Shown here: positions 35,424 to 46,704 of the stretch, piece by piece
Position numbering within the stretch: the stretch's first letter is position 1
Layout of the letters: each line of letters begins with the position of its first letter
NCBI GenBank assembly: GCA_003155655.1
Contig: PMDS01000079.1
Span: forward strand, 1 to 46,704
Source of the DNA: Melioribacter sp.
GTDB taxonomy: Bacteria; Bacteroidota; Ignavibacteria; Ignavibacteriales; Melioribacteraceae
Reading direction: 5' to 3'
Length of the DNA stretch: 46,704 nt
Notes under the pieces: model-generated
The model's input: only the letters and a program-made list of their open reading frames with translations
What the model was told of the DNA's origin: nothing
Databases searched by the model: none
Position numbers and translations under genes: made by a program

Positions 35424-36392
35424 CTATTTTCCTTCAATTATTTTTTTTTGATAATCTTCTGCGGCTTCCAGTGTGTTGAAATATCCTATTCTTACCCTAT
35501 ACCATGTTGCTCCTCTTACTAATCCTTCCGTAATAAAAGCATTGTGTCCTGCGCCTTTCAATCTTGCAACTTCACTGTCGGCTTTTGATTTATTCTTCCA
35601 TGAAGAAACCTGGAATGAATATTTTGATCCATCTGTAAATATTGTACTTTTTGGATTTGTCTCAACTTCATTTTCAGAATCTTTAGAAAGTATACCGGGT
35701 TTAATTTGCTTTTGTTCCACGCTATTCTGTTTTGGTTCTTCAGTTTTAGGGGTATTTTTTTTCTGCAGTTCTGTAATTGTAATTGCTTTTTGAGCTGAAT
35801 CTTTTTTACTTAGGTAAAGCGCTACCCTATTGAAAGCAGAAGATGTATCAGAAATAACAGGTTTAATATTTTCTACTTTTTTTGTAACAACCGGGATTGT
35901 TTGAACCGGTTCATTTTTCTTATCATTTTTAACAGGGGGCGTATTCTGAGTATCTATAGGAACTACCCCGCTATTTAAATATTCTAAGGCTTTATTAAAA
36001 ATTGCAGTCATTATCTCATTACCCTCAATAGGAACGGAAAAATTATCACTGCTGGAAGCAAATCCCGGCAATGAAGTCTCTCCAAGAATTTTTAAGTCCT
36101 TATCATAATATAAAGTTCCAATGACAGAATATTTTTTTAATGCGGCATTAAACAATATTTGAGACTTAACACTCGATGCTTCTTTATTCAGCGAGACGAT
36201 GGATTGAGCTTTTTTATATACTGTAATACTTAGAACCGATATTTGCCCGCTGAATTGTTTAATGGTTGAAGTATCAACATACACAGTTTGGCCGGACAAT
36301 TCAAGAATGTTAATCCATTTTGGTCCGGGCGCCTGTGCATAAATAACTTCTAAAGAAAAAATTAAAATTACGAGAATTGATTTAAGTTTCAT
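35424..36392 (-). CDS. SPOR-domain protein with surface-adhesin-like N-terminus
   Basis: A 322-aa exported protein. A signal peptide (1-19) leads to an N-terminal beta-rich domain (about 22-150) with the pattern WINILELSGQTVYVDTSTIK, seen in small secreted proteins of unknown role. A low-complexity Lys/Pro/Gln linker (about 150-240) follows, then a C-terminal SPOR domain (about 250-322: YSFQVSSWKNKSKADSEVARL and WYRVRIGYFNTLEAAEDY, quoted in parts). SPOR domains bind denuded peptidoglycan, often at the septum. It is divergent from the nuo operon. Confidence 0.82.
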   Translation of the reverse strand: MKLKSILVILIFSLEVIYAQAPGPKWINILELSGQTVYVDTSTIKQFSGQISVLSITVYKKAQSIVSLNKEASSVKSQILFNAALKKYSVIGTLYYDKDLKILGETSLPGFASSSDNFSVPIEGNEIMTAIFNKALEYLNSGVVPIDTQNTPPVKNDKKNEPVQTIPVVTKKVENIKPVISDTSSAFNRVALYLSKKDSAQKAITITELQKKNTPKTEEPKQNSVEQKQIKPGILSKDSENEVETNPKSTIFTDGSKYSFQVSSWKNKSKADSEVARLKGAGHNAFITEGLVRGATWYRVRIGYFNTLEAAEDYQKKIIEGK

Positions 36393-36485
36393 TTTGATGA
36401 GTTCTTGATTTATTCCTCCTATAATTTAATTAAAAAAATAATGCAATTAAAAAATTTGCAGAATATTAATTAATGAATTGATTTC

Positions 36486-36514
36486 TTGACAAAAATACTT
36501 TGTTATGCTATTTT
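36486..36514 (+). promoter_or_regulatory. Promoter of the nuo operon
   Basis: TTGACA (36486-36491), a perfect -35 box, is 17 bp from TATTTT (36509-36514). The predicted start near 36521 leaves a leader of about 17 nt before the nuoA ATG, with no clear Shine-Dalgarno in it. Confidence 0.65.
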
Positions 36515-36537
36515 CGACGCAACATTTTTGAAAAAAT

Positions 36538-36951
36538 ATGCTAACTGAGTTTGGTAAAATTTTTATTTTCATAATTCTGGCGCTTGTATTTGTAATAATC
36601 ACTCTTTTCGTAAATAAACTTCTCCGACCCGACAGACCAACATTTGAAAAACAAAAAGTATATGAATGCGGAGAAAATCCTGAAGGATCACCCTGGATTA
36701 AATTTAACATAAGATTCTATGTAGTTGCACTTATCTTTTTAATCTTTGACGTTGAAGTTGTTTTGCTTTTTCCATGGGCTTTAACTTATAAAGAATATGG
36801 CTTATATGGATTTTTGGTTGGAATAATATTTTTGCTTGTACTTGGTTTAGGAATGGCTTACGAATGGCGTAAAGGTGATTTGGAATGGGCCCGCCCAACT
36901 CCCAAACCACCAATACTTGATGATATTTTAAGAAAAGAAGTTAATAATTAA
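36538..36951 (+). CDS. nuoA: Complex I subunit A (NuoA)
   Basis: A 137-aa membrane subunit of proton-pumping NADH/ferredoxin:quinone oxidoreductase. It has three helices with the conserved YECGENPEGS loop near the quinone site (Cys about 41) and the acidic FDVEVVLLFPWA helix 2. The N-terminus starts directly in helix 1. First gene of the operon; nuoB follows after 41 bp. Confidence 0.95.
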   Translation: MLTEFGKIFIFIILALVFVIITLFVNKLLRPDRPTFEKQKVYECGENPEGSPWIKFNIRFYVVALIFLIFDVEVVLLFPWALTYKEYGLYGFLVGIIFLLVLGLGMAYEWRKGDLEWARPTPKPPILDDILRKEVNN

Positions 36952-36992
36952 TTCTTTGCTGTTTAAATTCTGATAATTAATTAAGAATTACA

Positions 36993-37484
36993 ATGGGTTT
37001 ACTAGATAAAGAATTTTCCGAAGGCAACATTGTAATATCCAATGTAGAAGACCTTTTTAATTGGGCACGACTATCATCTATCTGGCAGCTTGGGTTTGGA
37101 CTAGCTTGCTGCGCAATTGAAATGATGGCTACATCGATGTCTCACTATGATTTTGACCGTTTTGGTGTCATTCCACGAAATACGCCCCGTCAAGCAGATG
37201 CAATAATAATTTCCGGTACAGTAACATTAAAGATGGCTACCAGGATAAAAAGATTATATGAACAAATGCCTGACCCGAAGTACATTATCTCTATGGGCAG
37301 CTGCGCTAATTGCGGCGGGCCGTATTGGGAGCATGGCTACCATGTTTTAAAAGGAATCGACAGGATTATACCCGTTGATGTTTATGTACCCGGTTGTCCT
37401 CCAAGACCGGAGGCTTTATTAGAAGGACTTTTAAAATTACAAGAAAAAATTCGAAATGAATCACTGAGAAAAAAATCTGCATGA
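36993..37484 (+). CDS. nuoB: Complex I subunit B (NuoB), N2 cluster
   Basis: A 163-aa peripheral-arm subunit that holds the terminal [4Fe-4S] cluster N2, the direct electron donor to quinone. The ligands are visible: tandem Cys in [11 protein letters not shown], the Cys in [13 protein letters not shown] and [13 protein letters not shown]. Its TGA stop overlaps the nuoC ATG by 4 nt. Confidence 0.97.
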
Positions 37485-38029
37485 AGAATCCTGAAGAAAT
37501 TTTTAATCTCTTAAAAGAGAAATTTGGCGATTCAATCCTTGGTATTGATAAAGATACTCCTACTGAAGCAATAATTTCAATTAATCCCGGTCAAATACAT
37601 CGTGTTTCAAAATTTTTACGTGAGAATGAAGAGTTGAAGTTTGACAGCCTTATGTGTCTTTCCGGTGTTGATGATGCCAATGGCGAAAAAATAAAAGAAG
37701 AAGATGGTTCCGAAATAATTAAAGGCGGAACATTAAGTGTTTATTATCATCTTCATTCAGTAGATCTGAAACATAAAATTACATTAAAAGTCTCAACTCC
37801 AAGAGAAGATCCTAAAGTTGAATCAGTAGAAAATATTTGGAAATCAGCCAATTGGCATGAGAGAGAAGCATTTGATCTAGTTGGGATAGTTTTTTTGAAT
37901 CATCCTGATCTAAGAAGAATATTAATGCCCTATGATTGGGATGAATTTACAGAAGAAATTAGCAGACATCCATTAAGGAAAGATTATAAGAATCCGGAAT
38001 TTTATCAAGGGATGAAAGTTCCTTATTAG
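37481..38029 (+). CDS. nuoC: Complex I subunit C (NuoC)
   Basis: A 182-aa peripheral-arm subunit (30 kDa type), not fused to NuoD. The family signature [26 protein letters not shown] (about 124-149; key WHEREAFD and HPDLRRI) and the C-terminal HPLRKDY are present. The stop TAG is the first unit of the heptad array that precedes the four-helix gene, so the coding end and the repeat overlap. Confidence 0.96.
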
Positions 38030-38061
38030 TAATTAGTATTGAGTACCTAGTATTTAGAAGG
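38027..38061. repeat. Heptad array, left flank of the four-helix gene
   Basis: Five consecutive 7-bp units run from the nuoC stop to the RBS of the next gene: TAGTAAT, TAGTATT, GAGTACC, TAGTATT, TAGAAGG. The stretch 38033-38057 is an imperfect inverted repeat (22 of 25 positions) of 38435-38459 on the other side of the gene. Because 7 is not a multiple of 3, the TAG and TAA triplets fall in all three frames. Confidence 0.75.
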
Positions 38062-38066
38062 GTTTA

Positions 38067-38420
38067 ATGCATAATTACAAAGAATTGAAGGTTTGGCAGA
38101 AAGCCAGAGAGTTGGTAAAGTTCATTTATATTTTGACAAAGAAGTTTCCAAAAGACGAACTCTATGGAATTACTTCACAGATGAGAAGAGCTGCAATTTC
38201 AATTTCTTCTAATATTGCAGAAGGCTCAGGACATTCTTCTAAAAAAGATTTCATCAGATTTCTGGAATTTTCTTATTCATCTGCAAGTGAACTGGAAACG
38301 CAAATAATTTTGTCTTACGATTTGGAATTCATTAAAGAAAATGAATTAAATGAAGGATCAAATAGAATTTCTGAAATTCAGAAAATGCTAAAAGGCTTAA
38401 TAGATTCATTAAATAATTAG
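38067..38420 (+). CDS. Four-helix-bundle protein (S23/IVP family)
   Basis: A 117-aa all-helical protein of the S23 or 23S-rRNA-intervening-sequence family (TIGR02436 type). It contains the core pattern KELKVWQKARELVKFIY, YGITSQMRRAAISISSNIAEG and KDFIRFLEFSYSSASELETQ. Relatives are encoded in rRNA intervening sequences or stand alone, and the related Avd proteins of diversity-generating retroelements are basic homopentamers that bind nucleic acid. Its cellular role is unknown. It is not a complex I subunit, yet it sits in frame-compatible orientation between nuoC and nuoD. Heptad arrays in opposite orientation flank it, which suggests a small inserted unit. AAGGG lies 6 nt before the ATG. Confidence 0.88.
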   Translation: MHNYKELKVWQKARELVKFIYILTKKFPKDELYGITSQMRRAAISISSNIAEGSGHSSKKDFIRFLEFSYSSASELETQIILSYDLEFIKENELNEGSNRISEIQKMLKGLIDSLNN

Positions 38421-38426
38421 TTTTTG

Positions 38427-38461
38427 ACTAAGGACTAAATACTCAGTACTAAATACTAAGC
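38427..38461. repeat. Heptad array, right flank of the four-helix gene
   Basis: Five 7-bp units in the opposite orientation to the left flank: ACTAAGG, ACTAAAT, ACTCAGT, ACTAAAT, ACTAAGC. TAA triplets again fall in different frames. The array runs up to the nuoD start region, leaving no recognisable Shine-Dalgarno for nuoD. Confidence 0.75.
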
Positions 38462-38466
38462 ATGAA

Positions 38467-39582
38467 ATGCAATTAAAAACTGAATCAATGACGTTAAATA
38501 TGGGTCCCCAGCATCCTTCGACACATGGAGTGCTGAGACTTGAACTAGAGATAGAAGGTGAACTAGTTCTTAATGTTATACCGCATCTCGGTTATCTTCA
38601 TCGCTGTTTTGAAAAGCACGCTGAAGCAATGCAATACAACCAGGTAGTACCTTATACAGACCGTCTTGATTATCTTGCCTCGATAGGAAACAATTTTGGA
38701 TATGCAATTACAGTTGAAAAACTATTAGGAATAAAAGTACCTGAACGCGTTGAATATATTAGAGTAATAATGGCAGAATTACAGCGCATTGCTTCCCACC
38801 AGGTTGCGCTTGGTTCTAATGGCGCTGATTTAGGCGCTTTTACTCCTTTCCTCTATTTATTCCGCGACCGTGAACATATTTTGAGTATAATTGAAGAAAC
38901 TTGCGGTGCAAGAATGTTATACAATTATATATGGGTTGGCGGACTATCACATGATGTTCATCCGGATTTTGTCTTCAAGACAAAGGAGTTTGTTGAATAC
39001 TATAAACCAATGATAGTTGAGCTTGATAACCTTCTTTCTTATAATAAAATTTTTATTGAACGCACTGCAAACGTAGGCATACTTCCGCTGGATACAGCAA
39101 TAAATTTTGGCGCATCAGGACCTACATTAAGAGGCAGCGGAATTAAGTTTGATCTTAGAAGAGATGATCCATACTCAATTTATGACAGATTTGATTATGA
39201 TATACCTTTTGGACAAGGGTTACAAGGAACTGTTGGGGATTGCTGGGACAGATATTATGTACGTGTCCGGGAAATGGAACAAAGTTTGAAAATTATTGAG
39301 CAGGCAATTGATCAAATTCCAGAAGGGGATGTAAAATCAGCTATTCCTAAAAGAATAAAACCACCTAAAGGGACTGCATACGCACGCGTTGAAAATCCCC
39401 GCGGTGAACTTGGTTATTTTATAATTAGCGATGGCAACACTAATCCATTCAGGGTAAAAGTCCGTGCGCCATCTTTTGTAAATCTAGAAGTTCTTGGAGA
39501 ATTGTGCAAAGGTAATTTAGTTTCTGATGTTGTTGCAATTCTCGGAAGCATTGATATTGTATTGGGAGAAGTGGATAGATAA
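38467..39582 (+). CDS. nuoD: Complex I subunit D (NuoD)
   Basis: A 371-aa 49-kDa-type subunit forming the quinone-binding site with NuoB. It starts near [16 protein letters not shown]-type sequence (here [19 protein letters not shown]), with the quinone-site His and the Tyr-bearing loop near [11 protein letters not shown]. The C-terminus DIVLGEVDR is the family's usual end. The ATG at 38467 has no clear Shine-Dalgarno; another ATG at 38488 would still leave the GPQHPSTHG core. The stop overlaps nuoH by one base. Confidence 0.96.
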
Positions 39583-40649
39583 TGTACCAATATTTATACG
39601 ATTTAACCGGTAGTGGAATTTTATCTGCATTTATTGTTGCATCATTTCCATTGGTAAATGTTTTAATTGTTGTAGTAGTCGGCGTTTACCTTGAAAGAAA
39701 AGTATCGGCACACATGCAGGATAGATTAGGTCCGATGAGAACGGGCTGGCATGGTTCACTTCAGCTTATTGCAGATTTCATAAAGTTGTTACAAAAAGAA
39801 GATATATCTTCAAAAGATACAGACAAGTTCCTTTTTAATCTTGCTCCGGTTTTGGTTTTTACTGCTGCATTTGCAGCTTACGCCACTATTCCCTTTTCAA
39901 GTAAATTAATTGGTTCGGAAGCTGAAGTTGGAATTTTCTACATTATTGCTATTTCCGGTATTGTTGTTGTCAGCATTTTGATGGCTGGCTGGTCTGCTAA
40001 TAATAAATATTCACTTCTTGGCGCAATGCGTTCTGTTGCACAGATTATAAGTTATGAAATCCCTACTGCACTTGTTGTTCTTTCTATTGTAATGCTTACC
40101 GGAACGCTTAGTTTAGGAAAAATGAGCGAGATGCAGACAGCTTATTTCTGGAATTGGAATATACTTGGCGGTGCGGGATTCGGATTTACGAAATTTTTAC
40201 TTATTCCCTTTATGGTTGTTGGATTCATAATTATATATATAAGCACACTTGCAGAAACAAATAGAACACCATTCGATATTCCCGAAGCTGAGTCTGAACT
40301 TGTTGCGGGATATTTTACAGAATACTGCGGAATGAAATATGCAATGTTTATGCTCTCGGAATATGGGAATATGTTTGCTGTATCTGCAATAATTTCAATT
40401 TTATTTTTCGGCGGCTACCAGTCTCCTTTTGGTTACTTTGGAAATTCGTTAAACGCGCATTGGATGATCCCTTATGAGCAGGCATTTTGGTTTTTATTAA
40501 AAAGCTGGATTTTTATTTTAGTTCAAATGTGGCTGCGCTGGACCTTACCAAGATTACGTGTTGATCAATTAATGACAGTATGCTGGAAATACTTAATACC
40601 TTATGCAATATTAAATTTAATTATAATTGGAATAATATCTTTATTATAA
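39582..40649 (+). CDS. nuoH: Complex I subunit H (NuoH)
   Basis: A 355-aa membrane subunit with eight helices that links quinone chemistry to the pumping arm. Signature sequences are VYLERKVSAHMQDRLGPMRTGW (key ERKVSAHMQDR) and the loop ETNRTPFDIPEAESELVAGY of the charged E-channel. Translation is probably coupled to nuoD (TAATG overlap). No nuoE, nuoF or nuoG gene lies between nuoD and nuoH. Confidence 0.96.
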   Translation: MYQYLYDLTGSGILSAFIVASFPLVNVLIVVVVGVYLERKVSAHMQDRLGPMRTGWHGSLQLIADFIKLLQKEDISSKDTDKFLFNLAPVLVFTAAFAAYATIPFSSKLIGSEAEVGIFYIIAISGIVVVSILMAGWSANNKYSLLGAMRSVAQIISYEIPTALVVLSIVMLTGTLSLGKMSEMQTAYFWNWNILGGAGFGFTKFLLIPFMVVGFIIIYISTLAETNRTPFDIPEAESELVAGYFTEYCGMKYAMFMLSEYGNMFAVSAIISILFFGGYQSPFGYFGNSLNAHWMIPYEQAFWFLLKSWIFILVQMWLRWTLPRLRVDQLMTVCWKYLIPYAILNLIIIGIISLL

Positions 40650-40681
40650 ACTGAGACTGCCTATTGCAGACTGAAAATGTA

Positions 40682-41251
40682 ATGAAACAATATTTAAAAA
40701 ATACATGGCTTGGAATTTGGACAGTGCTTGTCGGGATGAAAATAACGTTCAAGCATTTATTTGTACCGGCAGTGACAATTCAATATCCGGATGTACGCTT
40801 AAAATTACCTGAACGTGAGAGGAACCGACTTTACGTTAACATGGATGACTGCATTGGCTGCGACCAGTGTTCACGTGCTTGCCCAGTTAATTGTATTGAT
40901 ATTGAAACTGTAAAATCAATCCCGGGAGAAGATCTCGGTATAACTTCAAATGGGAAAAAGAAAGCATTGTGGGTTACTACTTTTACAATTGATTTTGCAA
41001 AATGCTGCTATTGCCAGTTGTGTGTATTCCCCTGCCCTACCGAATGTATTTATATGACGGATGTATTTGAATTTTCCGAGTATGAAAGATCAAACTTTCT
41101 TTATAAGTTTTCTACTTTAACTGACGAAGAATCGGCACAGAAGAAAATTAACCTGGAAAAATTCCAGGCAGAAAAAGAAGCTCAAAAAGCTGCGGCTGCT
41201 TCAAAACCGGCTGCTCCGGCTTCATCACAAGAAGAAAAAAAATCTGAGTAA
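40682..41251 (+). CDS. nuoI: Complex I subunit I (NuoI), two [4Fe-4S] clusters
   Basis: A 189-aa ferredoxin-like subunit carrying clusters N6a and N6b. The motifs are CIGCDQCSRACPVNC and CCYCQLCVFPCPTEC. The start chosen is ATG 40682 (MKQYLKNTW); an in-frame TTG at 40664 would add six residues and is not excluded. The last ~35 residues form an unusual tail rich in Ala, Lys, Pro and Glu with no cluster ligand, probably disordered. Confidence 0.94.
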   Translation: MKQYLKNTWLGIWTVLVGMKITFKHLFVPAVTIQYPDVRLKLPERERNRLYVNMDDCIGCDQCSRACPVNCIDIETVKSIPGEDLGITSNGKKKALWVTTFTIDFAKCCYCQLCVFPCPTECIYMTDVFEFSEYERSNFLYKFSTLTDEESAQKKINLEKFQAEKEAQKAAAASKPAAPASSQEEKKSE

Positions 41252-41266
41252 AAGAGAAATAGATTT

Positions 41267-41764
41267 ATGGATTTTTACGATATAATATTTTACCTGTTTG
41301 CTGTAATCACTTTAGCTTCTGCATTTGTTGTAGTAACTACAAGAAATATTATTTACTCTGCATTCAGTCTTTTATTTACTTTTTTTGGCGTTGCAGGTAT
41401 ATATGTTTTGTTAGGCGCAGACTTTATAGCTGTTGTTCAGATAATGGTTTATGTAGGCGGTATTCTGATTCTTTTGCTATTTGGTGTTATGCTTACCAAC
41501 AAAATAACAACGGTTGAGATACGTACCGGCACAGCGAATGTTTTACCGGCTTCAATTGCAGTTGGAATTTTAGCAGGTTCAATAGTTACCGTAATGATGT
41601 GGACTGATTGGAAATCAAAACCAGGTGAAATTCCAATTACTACAACCAAAGCATTAGGCAGCTTACTAATAAACGATTATGTTTTAATTTTTGAATTACT
41701 TGGGATATTACTTCTTATAGCTTTGATCGGCGCAGCTTCAATTGCGAGAAGGGAAAAAGAGTAA
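41267..41764 (+). CDS. nuoJ: Complex I subunit J (NuoJ)
   Basis: A 165-aa membrane subunit with five helices. The conserved helix 3 region is FIAVVQIMVYVGGILILLLFGVML, shown by VQIMVYVGGILILLLF. The C-terminus IARREKE is typical. The TAA stop is followed directly by a heptad array before nuoK. Confidence 0.94.
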   Translation: MDFYDIIFYLFAVITLASAFVVVTTRNIIYSAFSLLFTFFGVAGIYVLLGADFIAVVQIMVYVGGILILLLFGVMLTNKITTVEIRTGTANVLPASIAVGILAGSIVTVMMWTDWKSKPGEIPITTTKALGSLLINDYVLIFELLGILLLIALIGAASIARREKE

Positions 41765-41765
41765 C

Positions 41766-41800
41766 TAGTATTTAGTAATTAGTATCTAGTATTTAGATAA
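41766..41800. repeat. Solo heptad array between nuoJ and nuoK
   Basis: Five 7-bp units, TAGTATT, TAGTAAT, TAGTATC, TAGTATT and TAGATAA, start 2 bp after the nuoJ stop. Several units are identical to those beside the four-helix gene, but no gene is enclosed here. It resembles an empty or scar copy of the same repeat, or an array without cargo. The remaining spacer holds only the GGAG of nuoK. Confidence 0.75.
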
Positions 41801-41820
41801 AAATAAAGAGTGGAGTTAGA

Positions 41821-42132
41821 TTGTTACATGTTGGTTTAATACATTTTCTAATTATAAGTGCCTTTTTATTTTCATTTGGCATTTATGGAATAGTTACGCG
41901 CAAAAATGCAGTTATGGTATTAATGGGAATTGAACTGATACTTAATTCAGCTAATATAAATTTTGTAGCATTTTCAAGATATGGCAATTTCGGATTGGGG
42001 GGACAGGTAATTGCACTATTTGTAATCATTCTTGCGGCAGCTGAAGCAGCTATTGCGTTAGCAATAGTTTTAAATATTTATAAAACATTTGCCAACGTTA
42101 ATGTTGACGAAATAGATCACTTAAAAGAATAG
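41821..42132 (+). CDS. nuoK: Complex I subunit K (NuoK)
   Basis: A 103-aa three-helix subunit with the conserved channel Glu residues in VMVLMGIELILNSANINF (helix 2) and LAAAEAAIALAIVLNIYK (helix 3). TTG 41821 is the start, supported by GGAG at 41812-41815. It is followed by nuoL after 2 bp. Confidence 0.95.
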   Translation: MLHVGLIHFLIISAFLFSFGIYGIVTRKNAVMVLMGIELILNSANINFVAFSRYGNFGLGGQVIALFVIILAAAEAAIALAIVLNIYKTFANVNVDEIDHLKE

Positions 42133-42134
42133 TT

Positions 42135-44228
42135 ATGAGCGAAAGTTTATTAATTAATATTTGTATTGTTATTCTTTTTCTACCACTTGTTGGATTTTCC
42201 ACAGTAATAATATTAGGGAAAAAAATACCTAAACTTTACATTTTTGAGGTTACTATTCTTGGAGTAGCACTGCTTCTATCTATTATTGTTGCATACACAA
42301 AACTTACATTTTACAGCACAAAAAATATTATCGGTGCCTTCACCTGGATTACAATGAGCAATGCCCCTGTTGGGGATTCAATTAGTATTGATCTTGGGAT
42401 GAAGATAGATAACATTACCGTATTAATGCTTTTTGTTGTTAACTTAATAAGTTTTCTAGTTCACGTTTATTCCATTGAATATATGCGTGGTGATAAAAGA
42501 TACACGCGCTATTTCGCCTATCTAGGAATTTTTACTTTTTCGATGCTTGGTATAGTGCTCACTCACAATTTATTAATGATGTATATCTTTTGGGAATTGG
42601 TTGGAGTTTCATCATACTTATTAATTGGTTTCTGGTTCGAAAAAAAATCTGCCGCTGATGCAGGCAAAAAAGCATTTATTGTAAATAGAATTGGCGATAT
42701 TGGAATGTTCATCGGTATCTTAATTCTGTTTACACAGTACAAAACATTTACATTTGATACAATATATCAACAGATTGCTTCAGGAAATCTTCCGTTTGGC
42801 AGTAATGGATGGCTAACCGCAGCAGGAATTTTAGTTTTTCTTGGCGCCGTTGGAAAATCAGCACAATTCCCTCTTCATGTATGGCTGCCCGATGCAATGG
42901 AAGGTCCTACACCTGTAAGCGCTTTAATTCATGCTGCTACAATGGTTGCTGCAGGTGTTTATCTTATTATTAGAATTTTTCCAATGCTTACAGCAGACGC
43001 GATGTTAGTAATTGCAGTTACCGGCGCGGTTACATCTCTTGTTGCTGCTACAATTGCACTTACTCAAAATGATATTAAAAAGGTATTGGCTTACTCCACA
43101 GTTTCACAGTTGGGTTACATGGTAATGTCCCTGGGTGTTGGCGCCTATGTTTTTGCATTCTTCCATCTTGTAACACATGCATTCTTCAAAGCATGCTTGT
43201 TCCTAGGTTCCGGTTCAGTCATTCATTCAATGCACCACGAACAGGATATACGCAATATGGGCGGACTTAGAAAGAAAATGCCGATTACTTATTTCACATT
43301 TTTGATATCCACACTTGCAATATCCGGCATACCATTCTTTTCAGGATTTTTAAGCAAAGATGGAATTCTTGCCGGTACGCTTGCTTTTGGAAAACTTACG
43401 GGTCATTGGCTGATTCCAATTATAGGATTTACAGTCGCCGGATTGACAGCATTCTATATGTTCCGTCTTGTAATTCTAACTTTTCATGGTGAACCAAGAG
43501 ATCATCATAAATTTGAACATGCGCATGAATCACCTTTTGTTATGGCTGCCCCGCTGGTTGTTTTGGCAGCTTTATCAATTTTTATCTGGTACACTCCAAA
43601 TCCTATTGGTGCAGACCAGGGCTGGTTTATGAAAGACTGGGTTAAAGCGCCATCACAAGTCACTCCTCTCGAAACTAGATTTGACTTCATGAAACCCAGC
43701 AGTGAAGAAGCTAAGGCAGAAGTTCACGGCGAAGTTGTACATTCTGTTGAGTACACTGAAACAATGCACTGGGCTCATTATCCTGCAATGGTTATGTCTC
43801 TTATTTTAGCAGGACTCGGAATATTAATTGCATTCATGTTTTATCAATGGAAAAAATTCAGCGCAGATAAACTTGCAGATAAAATTAAGCCGCTGTATAA
43901 TTTTTCATTGAACAAGTGGTACCTTGATGAAGTTTACGATAAAACAGCAATTGCAGGTACGTTAATTTTTAGCTCTATACTTTCCTGGTTTGATAATAAA
44001 ATTGTTGATGGAATTGTAAATGGTTCAGCAACTGTAACCAAATTCACATCCGGAATGAGCGGCTGGTTCGATACTTATGTTGTTGATGGTTTTGTAAACT
44101 TCACAGCATTTTTCAGCGGTTTTATTGGTCTCTCTTTCAGAAGATTACAAACCGGAAAAGTGCAGACATATATTGTGTTTATAGTTTTTGCAGTTGTTAT
44201 TCTGTTTCTGATCTTTAAGCCGTTTTGA
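42135..44228 (+). CDS. nuoL: Complex I subunit L (NuoL), antiporter-like
   Basis: A 697-aa antiporter-like pumping subunit with about 16 helices. The key Glu is in the WELVGVSSYLLIGFW helix 5 region, and the Lys and His regions are GAVGKSAQFPLHVWLPDAMEGPTPV and TQNDIKKVLAYSTVSQLGYM. A long C-terminal amphipathic lateral helix and final anchor helix (about 600-697) are present, as in NuoL but not NuoM. Length is normal. Confidence 0.96.
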   Translation: MSESLLINICIVILFLPLVGFSTVIILGKKIPKLYIFEVTILGVALLLSIIVAYTKLTFYSTKNIIGAFTWITMSNAPVGDSISIDLGMKIDNITVLMLFVVNLISFLVHVYSIEYMRGDKRYTRYFAYLGIFTFSMLGIVLTHNLLMMYIFWELVGVSSYLLIGFWFEKKSAADAGKKAFIVNRIGDIGMFIGILILFTQYKTFTFDTIYQQIASGNLPFGSNGWLTAAGILVFLGAVGKSAQFPLHVWLPDAMEGPTPVSALIHAATMVAAGVYLIIRIFPMLTADAMLVIAVTGAVTSLVAATIALTQNDIKKVLAYSTVSQLGYMVMSLGVGAYVFAFFHLVTHAFFKACLFLGSGSVIHSMHHEQDIRNMGGLRKKMPITYFTFLISTLAISGIPFFSGFLSKDGILAGTLAFGKLTGHWLIPIIGFTVAGLTAFYMFRLVILTFHGEPRDHHKFEHAHESPFVMAAPLVVLAALSIFIWYTPNPIGADQGWFMKDWVKAPSQVTPLETRFDFMKPSSEEAKAEVHGEVVHSVEYTETMHWAHYPAMVMSLILAGLGILIAFMFYQWKKFSADKLADKIKPLYNFSLNKWYLDEVYDKTAIAGTLIFSSILSWFDNKIVDGIVNGSATVTKFTSGMSGWFDTYVVDGFVNFTAFFSGFIGLSFRRLQTGKVQTYIVFIVFAVVILFLIFKPF

Positions 44229-44285
44229 AATATTTGTTTAAGATTCTTTGCATAGTTCAAGCAGGGAATAAATTTTTAAGAAGTT

Positions 44286-44320
44286 GCTAATAGCTAATTG
44301 CTATAGGCTAAAAGCTAAAA
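44286..44320. repeat. Solo heptad array (GCTAAT type) between nuoL and nuoM
   Basis: Five 7-bp units, GCTAATA, GCTAATT, GCTATAG, GCTAAAA and GCTAAAA, lie 57 bp after the nuoL stop. The unit differs in sequence from the TAGTATT arrays but has the same unit length and count. TAA/TAG triplets again occur in several frames. Confidence 0.65.
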
Positions 44321-44339
44321 TAAAAATAGGTTAGTAAAT

Positions 44340-45941
44340 ATGATTGGATTCCCGATTCTTTCGTTAATTACTTTTCTCCCTGTGGCGGGTATGTTCTTAA
44401 TTCTTTTTATGAAGAAGGAACAGCCTAATTCAATAAAATATTTATCAATTGGCATTACTGCAATACAAGTTGTTCTAGCTGTCATCTTGCTTGCCAATTA
44501 TAATTATTCAGCAGCAGGTGTTTACCAGGAGAAATCTTTTCAATTCATAGAAAAGTTCAGATGGATAAATATCTCCGGTCTCTCATTGCTTGGAACAGTA
44601 AAAGTTGATTACTTCCTTGGCATTGACGGCTTGAGTACACCAATGGTTTTATTAACCGCATTAATTTCGTTCATAGCAGCAATTTCTTCATGGACAATTA
44701 ATAAATCTATTAAAGGCTATTTTGCCCTGTTTCTACTTCTTGACGCCGGAATGATGGGTGTTTTTGTTTCTTTAGATTTCTTCCTGTTCTACATTTTCTG
44801 GGAACTAATGCTTCTTCCGATGTACTTCTTAATTGGAATTTGGGGCGGTCCAAGAAAAGAATATGCAGCTATTAAGTTTTTTATTTACACTTTATTCGGA
44901 AGCGTCTTTATTCTATTGGTTATGATCGGTTTATACTTCAGCGCTACCGAGCTTATGCCAGACGGCGCAAGAGTTCATACATTCAGCATGTTAGCATTAA
45001 TGAATCCGGGCAATTATTCTTTTGACGGAATTCTTTCAATGATGAATCCCAGTAATTTAAGACTCGTTGCTTACATTGCTCTCTTTGTTGGTTTTGCAAT
45101 CAAGATTCCAATGTTCCCCTTCCATACATGGCTGCCCGATGCACACGTTGAAGCTCCAACACCAATTTCAGTTATACTTGCCGGCGTTCTTTTGAAAATG
45201 GGCACATATGGAATTTTAAGAATCAGTTACCCAATCTTTCCGGATATAACCCGGCAGTTAATGTGGTGGATAGCTCTCTTTGGAATGATAAATATTATTT
45301 ACGGCGCTCTCGTTGCTCTTGCGCAAAAAGATTTCAAAAAACTTATTGCCTACTCATCCATTTCTCACATGGGTTACGTTTTATTAGGAATGGCTTCTTT
45401 AACAACCGTGGGATTGAATGGCGCAATATTCCAGATGTTTAATCACGGTACAATTACTGCAATGCTCTTCTTGATAGTAGGTGTAGTATATGACCGTGCA
45501 CATACAAGAGGATTAAATGATTTTGGCGGACTTGCAGCTCAAATGCCAATCTATACAGGGTTTGTTACAGTAGCATTTTTTGCAGCAATTGGTTTACCGA
45601 GCATGAGCGGCTTCGTATCCGAGGCGCTTGTATTTATCGGTTCATTTGGAGTTGCTTCCATAAGAGCTATTTCAATGATCTCTACTCTTGGAATTCTATT
45701 AGGTGCAGGCTACATGTTATGGACAATGCAGAGAGTTTTCTTTGGACCGTTGAATGAAAAATGGGCAACCCTAAAAGACCTTGACAAACGTGAATACCTG
45801 ATGTTCATTCCTCTTACTCTAATTATTATTTTCCTGGGAGTTTATCCATCGGGAATGCTGAACATTATGAATACATCAGTTAATACTCTTGTACAGTTTG
45901 TTACAACAACTATAAGTTCAACTTCATTAGGCGGATTATAA
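44340..45941 (+). CDS. nuoM: Complex I subunit M (NuoM), antiporter-like
   Basis: A 533-aa antiporter-like subunit with about 14 helices. Key positions are the Glu in WELMLLPMYFLIGIWGG, the HTWLPDAHVEAPTPISVILAGVLLK stretch (key HTWLPDAHVEAP) and KDFKKLIAYSSISHMGYV. No lateral helix is present, which separates it from NuoL. The 111-bp gap from nuoL contains a heptad array. Confidence 0.96.
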   Translation: MIGFPILSLITFLPVAGMFLILFMKKEQPNSIKYLSIGITAIQVVLAVILLANYNYSAAGVYQEKSFQFIEKFRWINISGLSLLGTVKVDYFLGIDGLSTPMVLLTALISFIAAISSWTINKSIKGYFALFLLLDAGMMGVFVSLDFFLFYIFWELMLLPMYFLIGIWGGPRKEYAAIKFFIYTLFGSVFILLVMIGLYFSATELMPDGARVHTFSMLALMNPGNYSFDGILSMMNPSNLRLVAYIALFVGFAIKIPMFPFHTWLPDAHVEAPTPISVILAGVLLKMGTYGILRISYPIFPDITRQLMWWIALFGMINIIYGALVALAQKDFKKLIAYSSISHMGYVLLGMASLTTVGLNGAIFQMFNHGTITAMLFLIVGVVYDRAHTRGLNDFGGLAAQMPIYTGFVTVAFFAAIGLPSMSGFVSEALVFIGSFGVASIRAISMISTLGILLGAGYMLWTMQRVFFGPLNEKWATLKDLDKREYLMFIPLTLIIIFLGVYPSGMLNIMNTSVNTLVQFVTTTISSTSLGGL

Positions 45942-45946
45942 TATTA

Positions 45947-46704
45947 ATGATGGTAAATGCAAATTTATTTCAGTCGCTGAATCTAATTGTTCCGGAAATT
46001 GTACTTTCTATCGCGCTAATTGTATTAGTCGCTGCAGATTTAATTTTCCATAAAGACAAGAAATTAATTCCTTATGTAGCATTGGCTGGAATTTTAATTA
46101 CAGGGTACTTTGTAATAAACCAGTTTGGAGATTATGGTTTTGCATTTAAGTCTTCCTCGTTGATATATGGAAATTTTGGGATGGTTGCAGTTGATTCCTT
46201 TGGTTTGTTTTTCAAGTTGATTGTTGTTGCCTCTACAATTTTGATAATCTTCTTTTCTTTCTCATCTGATGAGATACAAAAAATTACCGACCGTGTTGGC
46301 GAATATTATGCTTTGATATTCGGAATGATCCTGGGAATGTTCTTAATGATTTCCGCTACTGATTTGATATTGATTTACTTATCAATGGAATTGATGTCAC
46401 TTTCGTCCTATGTGCTTTCCGGCTTTACAAAATTAAGAGACAGGAATAGTGAAGCTGCATTAAAATATTTACTCTTTGGCGCAACTTCATCCGGTTTAAT
46501 GTTATTTGGAATTTCTCTTATCTATGGTCTGACAGGCAGTACAAATCTTTACGTGATCAATTCATTAATCCAAAATCCTCATTTAAATCTGTTTGCATTT
46601 TCATTTGCCTGCATTTTGATTTTTGCAGGTATAGGATATAAAATTTCATCCGCACCATTTCATTTCTGGACTCCGGATGTTTATGAGGGCGCACCAATAA
46701 CAAT
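45947..46704 (+). CDS. nuoN: Complex I subunit N (NuoN), 5' part
   Basis: The frame opens at ATG 45947 (a second ATG follows at once) and stays open to the window end, giving about 252 residues of an expected ~480. It has hydrophobic helices, the NuoN-like DLILIYLSMELMSLSSYVLSGF region (key YLSMELMSLSSYVL, with its Glu) and SAPFHFWTPDVYEGAP at the edge. The 5 bp after nuoM places it as the last gene of the operon. The 3' half lies outside the window. Confidence 0.95.
   Translation, partial: MMVNANLFQSLNLIVPEIVLSIALIVLVAADLIFHKDKKLIPYVALAGILITGYFVINQFGDYGFAFKSSSLIYGNFGMVAVDSFGLFFKLIVVASTILIIFFSFSSDEIQKITDRVGEYYALIFGMILGMFLMISATDLILIYLSMELMSLSSYVLSGFTKLRDRNSEAALKYLLFGATSSGLMLFGISLIYGLTGSTNLYVINSLIQNPHLNLFAFSFACILIFAGIGYKISSAPFHFWTPDVYEGAPIT

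Follow-up and report, generated by a model that had tools for sequence, protein, structure and literature searches.

Many genes of the S23/IVP family are framed by paired arrays of short tandem units. In such an S23 element the gene lies between one array and a second, inverted one, which together form the ends of the element, and the commonest long array consists of five units of 7 or 8 nucleotides (nt) with an AG core. The element was analysed from a 46,704-nt stretch of Melioribacter sp. DNA (Bacteroidota; Ignavibacteriales; contig PMDS01000079.1 of assembly GCA_003155655.1), here called the window, which holds the nuo operon with one such element between nuoC and nuoD and two arrays without a gene at nuoJ/nuoK and nuoL/nuoM.

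Five-unit arrays in the nuo operon

An earlier note on this DNA had described solo arrays of five heptads at nuoJ/nuoK and nuoL/nuoM, among four arrays in the operon. A Tandem Repeats Finder search of the window placed period-7 arrays at 38025-38057, 38427-38460, 41766-41796 and 44286-44318. In a scan of the whole window for periods 5-16 (threshold 11), three arrays passed at period 7 (38426-38459, 41760-41796 and 44286-44320) and 0-2 at each of the other periods, while 10 dinucleotide shuffles averaged 0.1 at period 7. With a score of 9 the array at 38025-38060 fell short of this threshold; its score was matched by 1 of 2000 letter shuffles and that of each other array by 0 of 2000. The idea in the earlier note depended on an excess of 7-nt periodicity over shuffled sequence and on unit counts that do not vary at random; both were found, the modal count being five.

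Read as AG dinucleotides at exact 7-nt steps, all four arrays consist of five units. The element at nuoC/nuoD begins with an array at 38027-38057 on the + strand (five AG at 38028-38057, 7-nt steps), the first AG of which lies within the nuoC stop codon TAG (38027-38029). This is followed by an S23/IVP four-helix-bundle gene of 117 amino acids (38067-38420, + strand; PF05635, TIGR02436; fold of 2gsc/2rld) and by an array at 38428-38457 that is inverted relative to the first, with five CT on the + strand and five AG on the - strand. The two ends are complementary over 25 nt (88%), as are the ends around the open reading frame (ORF) of a 23S rRNA intervening sequence (IVS), although this element sits between nuoC and nuoD and not inside an rRNA gene. 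Terminal inverted repeats, as in DNA transposons and insertion sequences, are present both here and in the S23 flank sets described below; between the nuoC/nuoD arms the S23 ORF stands alone and no transposase was found.

The five-unit arrays reported at nuoJ/nuoK and nuoL/nuoM were confirmed, on the + and - strand respectively, and neither has an S23 gene attached. The nuoJ/nuoK array (41767-41796, TAGTATT type) has five AG at 7-nt steps and a sixth in-step AG at 41760, inside the last sense codon of nuoJ, while the nuoL/nuoM array (44287-44316, GCTAAT type) has five CT on the + strand. All four arrays are short, as claimed, though about 30-37 bp long and not uniformly 35 bp, and the claim that they lie just after stops or before starts does not hold for the nuoL/nuoM array, which starts 58 nt past the nuoL stop and ends about 23 nt ahead of nuoM. 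The unit types in the window are TAGTATT and GCTAATA, and exact TAACTGA units were not among them. A clustered regularly interspaced short palindromic repeat (CRISPR) array was ruled out, as the window arrays are head-to-tail 7-nt units without spacers and show no long repeats alternating with unique spacers. An Rfam scan of 36300-46704 (E up to 1) gave one match, under its gathering score and away from the arrays.

Arrays at S23 genes across bacteria

The genome of the window has 14 places matching PF05635, six of them with internal stops, and 13 S23 genes, since two of the 14 places overlap. Clear inverted short-unit arrays were seen by eye at nine of the 13, with units that vary by gene; the others had a one-sided array (one gene), irregular repeats (one) or none (two). 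Relatives in the order carry up to 19 S23 matches per genome.

A combined sample of 161 S23/IVP genes was assembled from two sets. The order-level set comprises 80 full-length genes together with their flanks, or 81 when no flank length was demanded, from 93 unique profile matches in the loci fetched, themselves drawn from part of the matches listed. A single peptide pattern yielded 587 confirmed places, the best 80 of which form the named multi-phylum set. Two loci (L050 and L206) have identical flanks and one (L045) contains masked letters.

Autocorrelation in the order-level flanks was raised at lags 7, 14 and 21 (0.39 at lag 7 in comparison to 0.28 inside genes), and the match between the left flank and the inverted right flank exceeded the 95th percentile of mixed pairs for 56 of 80 genes. 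The same held for 51 of 80 in the named set, where lags 7 and 8 were raised. Over all 161 genes, AG runs lie upstream and CT runs downstream, long runs occur almost exclusively at steps of 7 or 8, and 91 elements have two clear arms of equal step. Of 11 S23 genes carried by viral contigs, at least three had arms visible by eye, as did several of 10 from cyanobacterial plasmids, where runs ranged from 3 to 15; no match was found in annotated phage records.

Some lineages depart from this pattern in their repeats. An S23 lineage at one common junction (L005, L111, L138, L151 and L152) has irregular repeats, AAAGAATC and GAGCGAAGCGATTC, without clear AG arms, and telomere-like arrays (TAGGGTT/TTAGGTT) frame the S23 genes of L239 and L263. 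On two cyanobacterial plasmids (L384 and L385) the S23 gene is flanked by cas6 and cas4, and the AG array upstream of it runs to 14-15 heptamers.

Unit number and step length

Runs were counted by step as the longest AG run upstream and the longest CT run downstream. At step 7, upstream runs in the order-level set had four units in 9 elements, five in 12, six in 2, seven in 3 and nine in 1, and downstream runs had four in 7, five in 13 and six in 1; at step 8 the counts were four in 4, six in 1 and eight in 1 upstream, and three in 4 and five in 3 downstream. The named set gave, at step 7, four units in 9, five in 11, six in 5, seven in 4, eight in 1 and thirteen in 1 upstream, and four in 8, five in 21, six in 3 and longer runs in 3 downstream. 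Its step-8 runs had four units in 3, five in 14, six in 3 and more in 3 upstream, and four in 2, five in 19, six in 3 and more in 2 downstream. Runs of at least five units at steps 7 and 8 together numbered 130 in the expected orientation in comparison to 10 in the wrong one (CT upstream, AG downstream), with 640 flank-by-step tests each. Long runs at steps 5, 6, 9 and 10 were rare: step 6 was represented by one element (six upstream, eight downstream) and step 9 by two downstream flanks only (five and six).

The AG core was chosen after the data had been seen, and a test admitting any dinucleotide served as guard. In either arm the mode was again five, at 51 and 61 of 161 in comparison to 14 and 10 for six, while shuffles reached at least five units in 4 and 6 of 483. 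Because several sampled rows are orthologues, counts were also collapsed to one element per site (77 insertion sites); the mode remained five (23.8 upstream, 29.8 downstream), followed by four (17.0 and 12.6) and six (5.9 and 7.9). Both arms had at least four AG or CT units in 57 elements, of which 56 had equal steps in the two arms, and five-and-five was the top pair (22 elements).

Kinship of arrays and proteins

In the 91 elements with two clear arms, unit similarity was 0.604 within an arm, 0.597 across the arms of one element and 0.451 between elements. Between different sites it rose with protein identity, both at step 7 (r 0.217; Mantel, 1 of 2000 shuffles) and at step 8 (r 0.491; 0 of 2000). 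The nearest protein at another site belonged to an element of the same step in 79 of 91 cases, in comparison to a shuffled mean of 50.2 and maximum of 70. Such kinship of unit and step with protein would be predicted by recognition of the arrays by the protein and equally by joint inheritance within a moving unit, and so falls short of proof of binding.

These results also bear on whether the arrays could be functionless minisatellites born of slippage. Many bacteria have an excess of heptamer repeats, for which slippage has been proposed as a source (PMC4692102); some of the arrays seen here are likewise long and regular. A fixed modal number and an AG core that persist despite varied units, inverted pairing around one gene family, and a step length tied to the protein all speak against slippage. 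It is disfavoured and appears very unlikely, because the modal count is fixed and the step follows the protein.

The S23 protein and a possible mechanism

The S23 protein of the window scored above the cut-offs of S23/IVP models (PF05635, 138.1 in comparison to 33.8 bits; also 131.3 in comparison to 24). Its AlphaFold model (mean pLDDT 97) is predicted to have the four-helix-bundle fold of 2gsc and 2rld, with structure matches to 2gsc (TM 0.97), 2rld (TM 0.86) and Avd (4dwl, TM 0.83). Both 2gsc and 2rld contain five chains, and the 2gsc protein is a toroidal homopentamer according to the part of PMC4990558 available; by relation to these structures the window protein may be a pentamer as well.

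We consider it an even chance that the arrays are docking sites of this putative ring protein. As five units match five subunits, one S23 homopentamer may sit on one array, with one unit per subunit. Paired arrays would then be the ends of the S23 element and act mainly as DNA, solo arrays would be gene-less copies left or spread by the element, and a helper would move it. A comparable arrangement is known from TRAP, whose ring of 11 subunits reads (G/U)AG triplets at even spacing in RNA. The putative S23 reading would share with TRAP the ring, the evenly spaced AG units and a unit number equal to the number of subunits, but the S23 fold is unrelated and helical, the number is five instead of eleven, and DNA rather than RNA is suspected as the target. 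Only tentatively can this be extended to S23 pentamers as counting readers, one ring per five AG units, with the heptamer arrays of Bacteroidota, Cyanobacteria, Clostridia and others, including the Xanthomonas, Nostoc and Beggiatoaceae repeats, as the footprint of one widespread S23 element family, perhaps moved in trans by a Y1-type transposase.

S23 copy number in 39 genomes of the order tracks the number of Y1_Tnp matches (rho 0.42, p 0.008, kinship not corrected), and the five genomes without Y1_Tnp have 0, 1, 1, 2 and 4 S23 matches. In the same 39 genomes it does not track DDE_Tnp_1 (rho 0.03). RVT_1, the only reverse transcriptase family searched, had one match in the genome of the window, on another contig, and none in 28 of the 39 genomes; S23 counts did not differ between the 11 genomes with RVT_1 and the 28 without (p 0.99). 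On the counts for this one family, help in trans by a reverse transcriptase was set aside.

The array could instead act in RNA, with the pentamer reading the left array in the mRNA leader in a TRAP-like autoregulation, or with the arms pairing and RNase III excising the element as in the 23S rRNA IVS. The co-direction of S23 genes in operons fits such a role, as does the left array, which ends a median of 26 nt ahead of the S23 start codon. In the known IVS, RNase III cuts at the inverted ends and heptamers precede the S23 ORF (PMC4990558), and Avd, a fold relative, belongs to a ribonucleoprotein to judge by PDB titles. The right array, however, has no AG in the sense RNA, and G-U mismatches are not in excess over A-C (91 in comparison to 88 in the order-level set; 68 in comparison to 118 in the named set, the wrong direction, p 0.0003). 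A sense-RNA stem under pairing selection was rejected on this absence of G-U excess. Pairing in register (0.644) was only slightly better than one unit out (0.60 and 0.60) or two units out (0.58 and 0.64) in 22 elements, so that a strict hairpin register was likewise set aside. Since the AG strand is mirrored between the two ends (top on the left, bottom on the right), in the manner of terminal inverted repeats, and since solo arrays face both ways, DNA is favoured over RNA; this is a leaning, short of proof, and an RNA-level element is doubtful but still a possibility to be taken seriously.

Arrays without a gene

The pattern TTAGTATTTAGTATTTAGTAT, allowing up to 3 mismatches, had 32 matches in the genome of the window in comparison to 2 for the reversed pattern. 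Apart from the nuoC/nuoD unit, its nearest places to a PF05635 match were the nuoJ/nuoK array (3.3 kb) and a place on contig C133 (9 kb); no PF05635 match is present on the contigs of the remaining places, some of which are near contig ends. For TAGTATT solo arrays 17 sites were given, one of them without a run, leaving 16 rows, one of which repeats a neighbour's array, and one further place (contig C124) was left out. The AG run had five units in 11 of the 16 rows, three in 2, six in 2 and nine in 1. Where the array lies between two co-directional genes (8 rows), four face with the genes and four against. In 20 stretches from relatives, one of which holds an S23 ORF, 27 solo runs had three units in 2, four in 4, five in 9, six in 6, seven in 4 and eight in 2. 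Genomes with a TAGTATT-type nuo unit, designated after their sequences had been seen, were richer in such matches (p 0.009, with own matches removed and kinship not corrected; four own-element matches were subtracted for the genome of the window, in comparison to three listed).

In a 400-kb sample (8.7%) of the genome, 12 arrays passed at period 7 in comparison to 1 in one shuffle; 10 of the 12 lie at least 94% outside ORFs, and two of the 12 are the arms of another S23 gene. Other periods also exceeded the shuffle but were lower (11 at period 14, a harmonic; 6 at period 12; 5 each at periods 6, 8, 15 and 22). Intergenic AG runs of at least four units at step 7 numbered 18 in 447 kb of the genome of the window and four in 400 kb of a genome with 17 S23 matches (G001), a weak signal as four were also found at step 8 and up to three at other steps; 400 kb from three genomes with 0-2 S23 matches contained no such run. 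A gene-less inverted pair lies on contig C48 (62177-62252). A pair of solo arrays in one relative (L381, genome G038; positions 682 and 1175), separated by about 500 nt, is oriented outward, the opposite of an S23 unit.

The suggestion that the arrays are scars or targets of the unit at nuoC/nuoD is borne out in part: over 32 nt the nuoJ/nuoK array shares 88% identity with the left end of this unit, and gene-less copies, which may be scars, targets or binding sites, are numerous. The nuoL/nuoM array has a different unit.

Operon position, stop codons and descent

S23 genes are co-directional with the upstream neighbour within 400 nt in 152 of 157 cases, with the downstream neighbour in 140 of 152, and with both in 135 of 161. 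A left AG run of at least four together with a clear upstream gene was present in 87 elements; the upstream stop codon contains the first AG in 30 of these and is TAG in 39, in comparison to 42 of 215 other genes of the same loci. A three-frame set of stops is commoner in left arms than in letter shuffles (37 of 61 in comparison to 16.8 at step 7; 14 of 30 in comparison to 7.5 at step 8). The earlier proposal that a 7-bp period, by placing stops in every frame, serves to block readthrough is right in that the array often supplies the upstream stop at S23 genes. Against such a function, the three-frame set is missing from 40 of 91 left and 63 of 91 right arms, the nuoJ and nuoL stops precede their arrays, and arrays are found between convergent and divergent genes too. 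That the arrays are stop cassettes is hardly credible, and the stop codons are at most a side property.

Several junctions, presumably including sdhA/sdhB, a name recognised from the sequences with no search behind it, recur across many species, in clusters of up to 11 loci with the same upstream gene. Protein and neighbour identities correlate in same-site pairs (0.60 and 0.64; 90 pairs), indicating much vertical descent at these junctions. Fixation of this kind would suit a host regulon in which S23 or another protein binds the arrays as ordinary operator- or terminator-like sites of the host, S23 genes are regulators lying beside their own sites and nothing is mobile; the 16 solo rows, which adjoin genes of mixed function, would suit it too. 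The many S23 copies per genome, the internal stops at six of the 14 places, the inverted arms on both sides of the gene, and the occurrence of both filled and tightly closed nuoC/nuoD junctions within one genus all run counter to it, and we regard a host regulon as improbable.

Returning to a mobile element with docking arrays, several results weigh against it. Two clear arms of the same step are lacking at 70 of the 161 S23 genes, other cores such as GGT occur in some lineages, and unit-protein kinship is also predicted by plain co-inheritance. The common junctions point to much vertical descent, and the strict co-direction of S23 genes suits an RNA role equally. Neither target duplication nor movement was seen directly, filled and empty nuoC/nuoD junctions being too diverged to compare. 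Counts other than five occur, as in the cyanobacterial cas loci with their 14-15 units and in the solo arrays of relatives, where five units make up 9 of 27 and six to eight 12 of 27. In the available portions of two papers, the Coxiella S23 ORF is preceded by three heptamers and one degenerate one, fewer in some strains (PMC4990558), and Xanthomonas heptamer arrays have mostly four units by their authors' count (PMC4692102).

Relation to known repeats and mobile units

REP sequences with their RAYT transposase comprise a gene framed by inverted repeats and gene-less copies scattered in the genome. The S23 element resembles them in both respects but has no transposase inside, and its ends are arrays of units instead of single hairpins. 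The 23S rRNA IVS of Leptospira and Coxiella carries an ORF of the same family, S23p, between inverted ends, with tandem GACAGAT heptamers ahead of the ORF in Coxiella (PMC4990558, in part). The nuo element shares the protein family and the complementary ends; it differs in lying in a protein operon and in having AG/CT unit arrays at both ends. In bacteria of the candidate phyla radiation, S23 units are scattered among rRNA insertions (PMC11270868, accessible portion).

Intergenic heptamer repeats are described as GGGAATC in Xanthomonas and GGGGA(T/C)T in Nostoc (PMC4692102) and as TAACTGA in Beggiatoaceae, Cyanobacteria and Bacteroidetes (PMC4679880). As far as the text of these two sources is available, such repeats resemble the window arrays in being tandem, intergenic and numerous in a genome, in Xanthomonas often as close inverted pairs, and differ in unit sequence and in that five units are not reported; a term search of that text found no S23/IVP gene named. 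An S23-CRISPR link was noted earlier (PMC3936711 and PMC10910872, in their available parts), and it could stem from S23 units within cas operons like those on the two cyanobacterial plasmids. In one survey of diversity-generating retroelements (DGRs), as partly accessible, PF05635 is the commonest family (PMC10053308). S23 shares the fold of the DGR protein Avd, which PDB titles also place in the DGR ribonucleoprotein 8ub7 and others. The window protein nevertheless scored under the cut-offs of Avd models (36.5 in comparison to 80 bits; 32.1 in comparison to 40), and S23 number is unrelated to the presence of the reverse transcriptase family searched, RVT_1.

Heptamer arrays and S23 genes are each already in print separately, as far as the sources could be consulted. 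A general link between array and gene, the number five and the tie between step and protein were not found in the literature searched, a scope that left out preprints and most subscription journals. If S23 rings do dock on the arrays, a very widespread family annotated without function ('four helix bundle protein', S23) would gain its first substrate, the bacterial heptamer repeats left unexplained in several papers would have a cause, and the presence of S23 genes in rRNA, cas and metabolic operons would have a reason. A five-membered ring would predict five units, 7 or 8 nt apart, and Avd of the DGRs would be joined to units that seemingly need no reverse transcriptase.

The nuo junctions

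In the window the element is flanked by nuoC (Complex1_30kDa, 37481-38029) and nuoD (Complex1_49kDa, 38467-39582), and the solo arrays by nuoJ (41267-41764), nuoK (41821-42132), nuoL (42135-44228) and nuoM (44340-45941), all on the + strand. Among 29 readable nuoC/nuoD junctions the element was found in 5 and a decayed remnant in 1, and in at least 8 the nuoC stop, TGA in all eight, touches or overlaps the nuoD start; two further nuoC/nuoD elements came from other loci (G005 and G037). A single clade of the seven nuoC/nuoD S23 copies was not rejected (p-AU 0.48). The window S23 protein is 70% identical to a protein from another family in comparison to 61-63% to those of two congeners, while nuoC shows the opposite trend (63% to the other-family genome, 69-70% to congeners), and S23 and neighbour identities are uncorrelated in this cluster (0.12 and -0.61; 10 pairs). 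Either vertical descent with losses or repeated arrival may account for these copies.

In congeners (loci L074, L076, L078 and L079) the nuoJ/nuoK and nuoL/nuoM spacers carry other small hairpin-like repeats of the type GTCATCCTGAGCGGAGCGAAGGATCT, and these junctions seem permissive to several repeat families. In genome G037 (L098) about 3.3 kb lies between nuoI and nuoJ.

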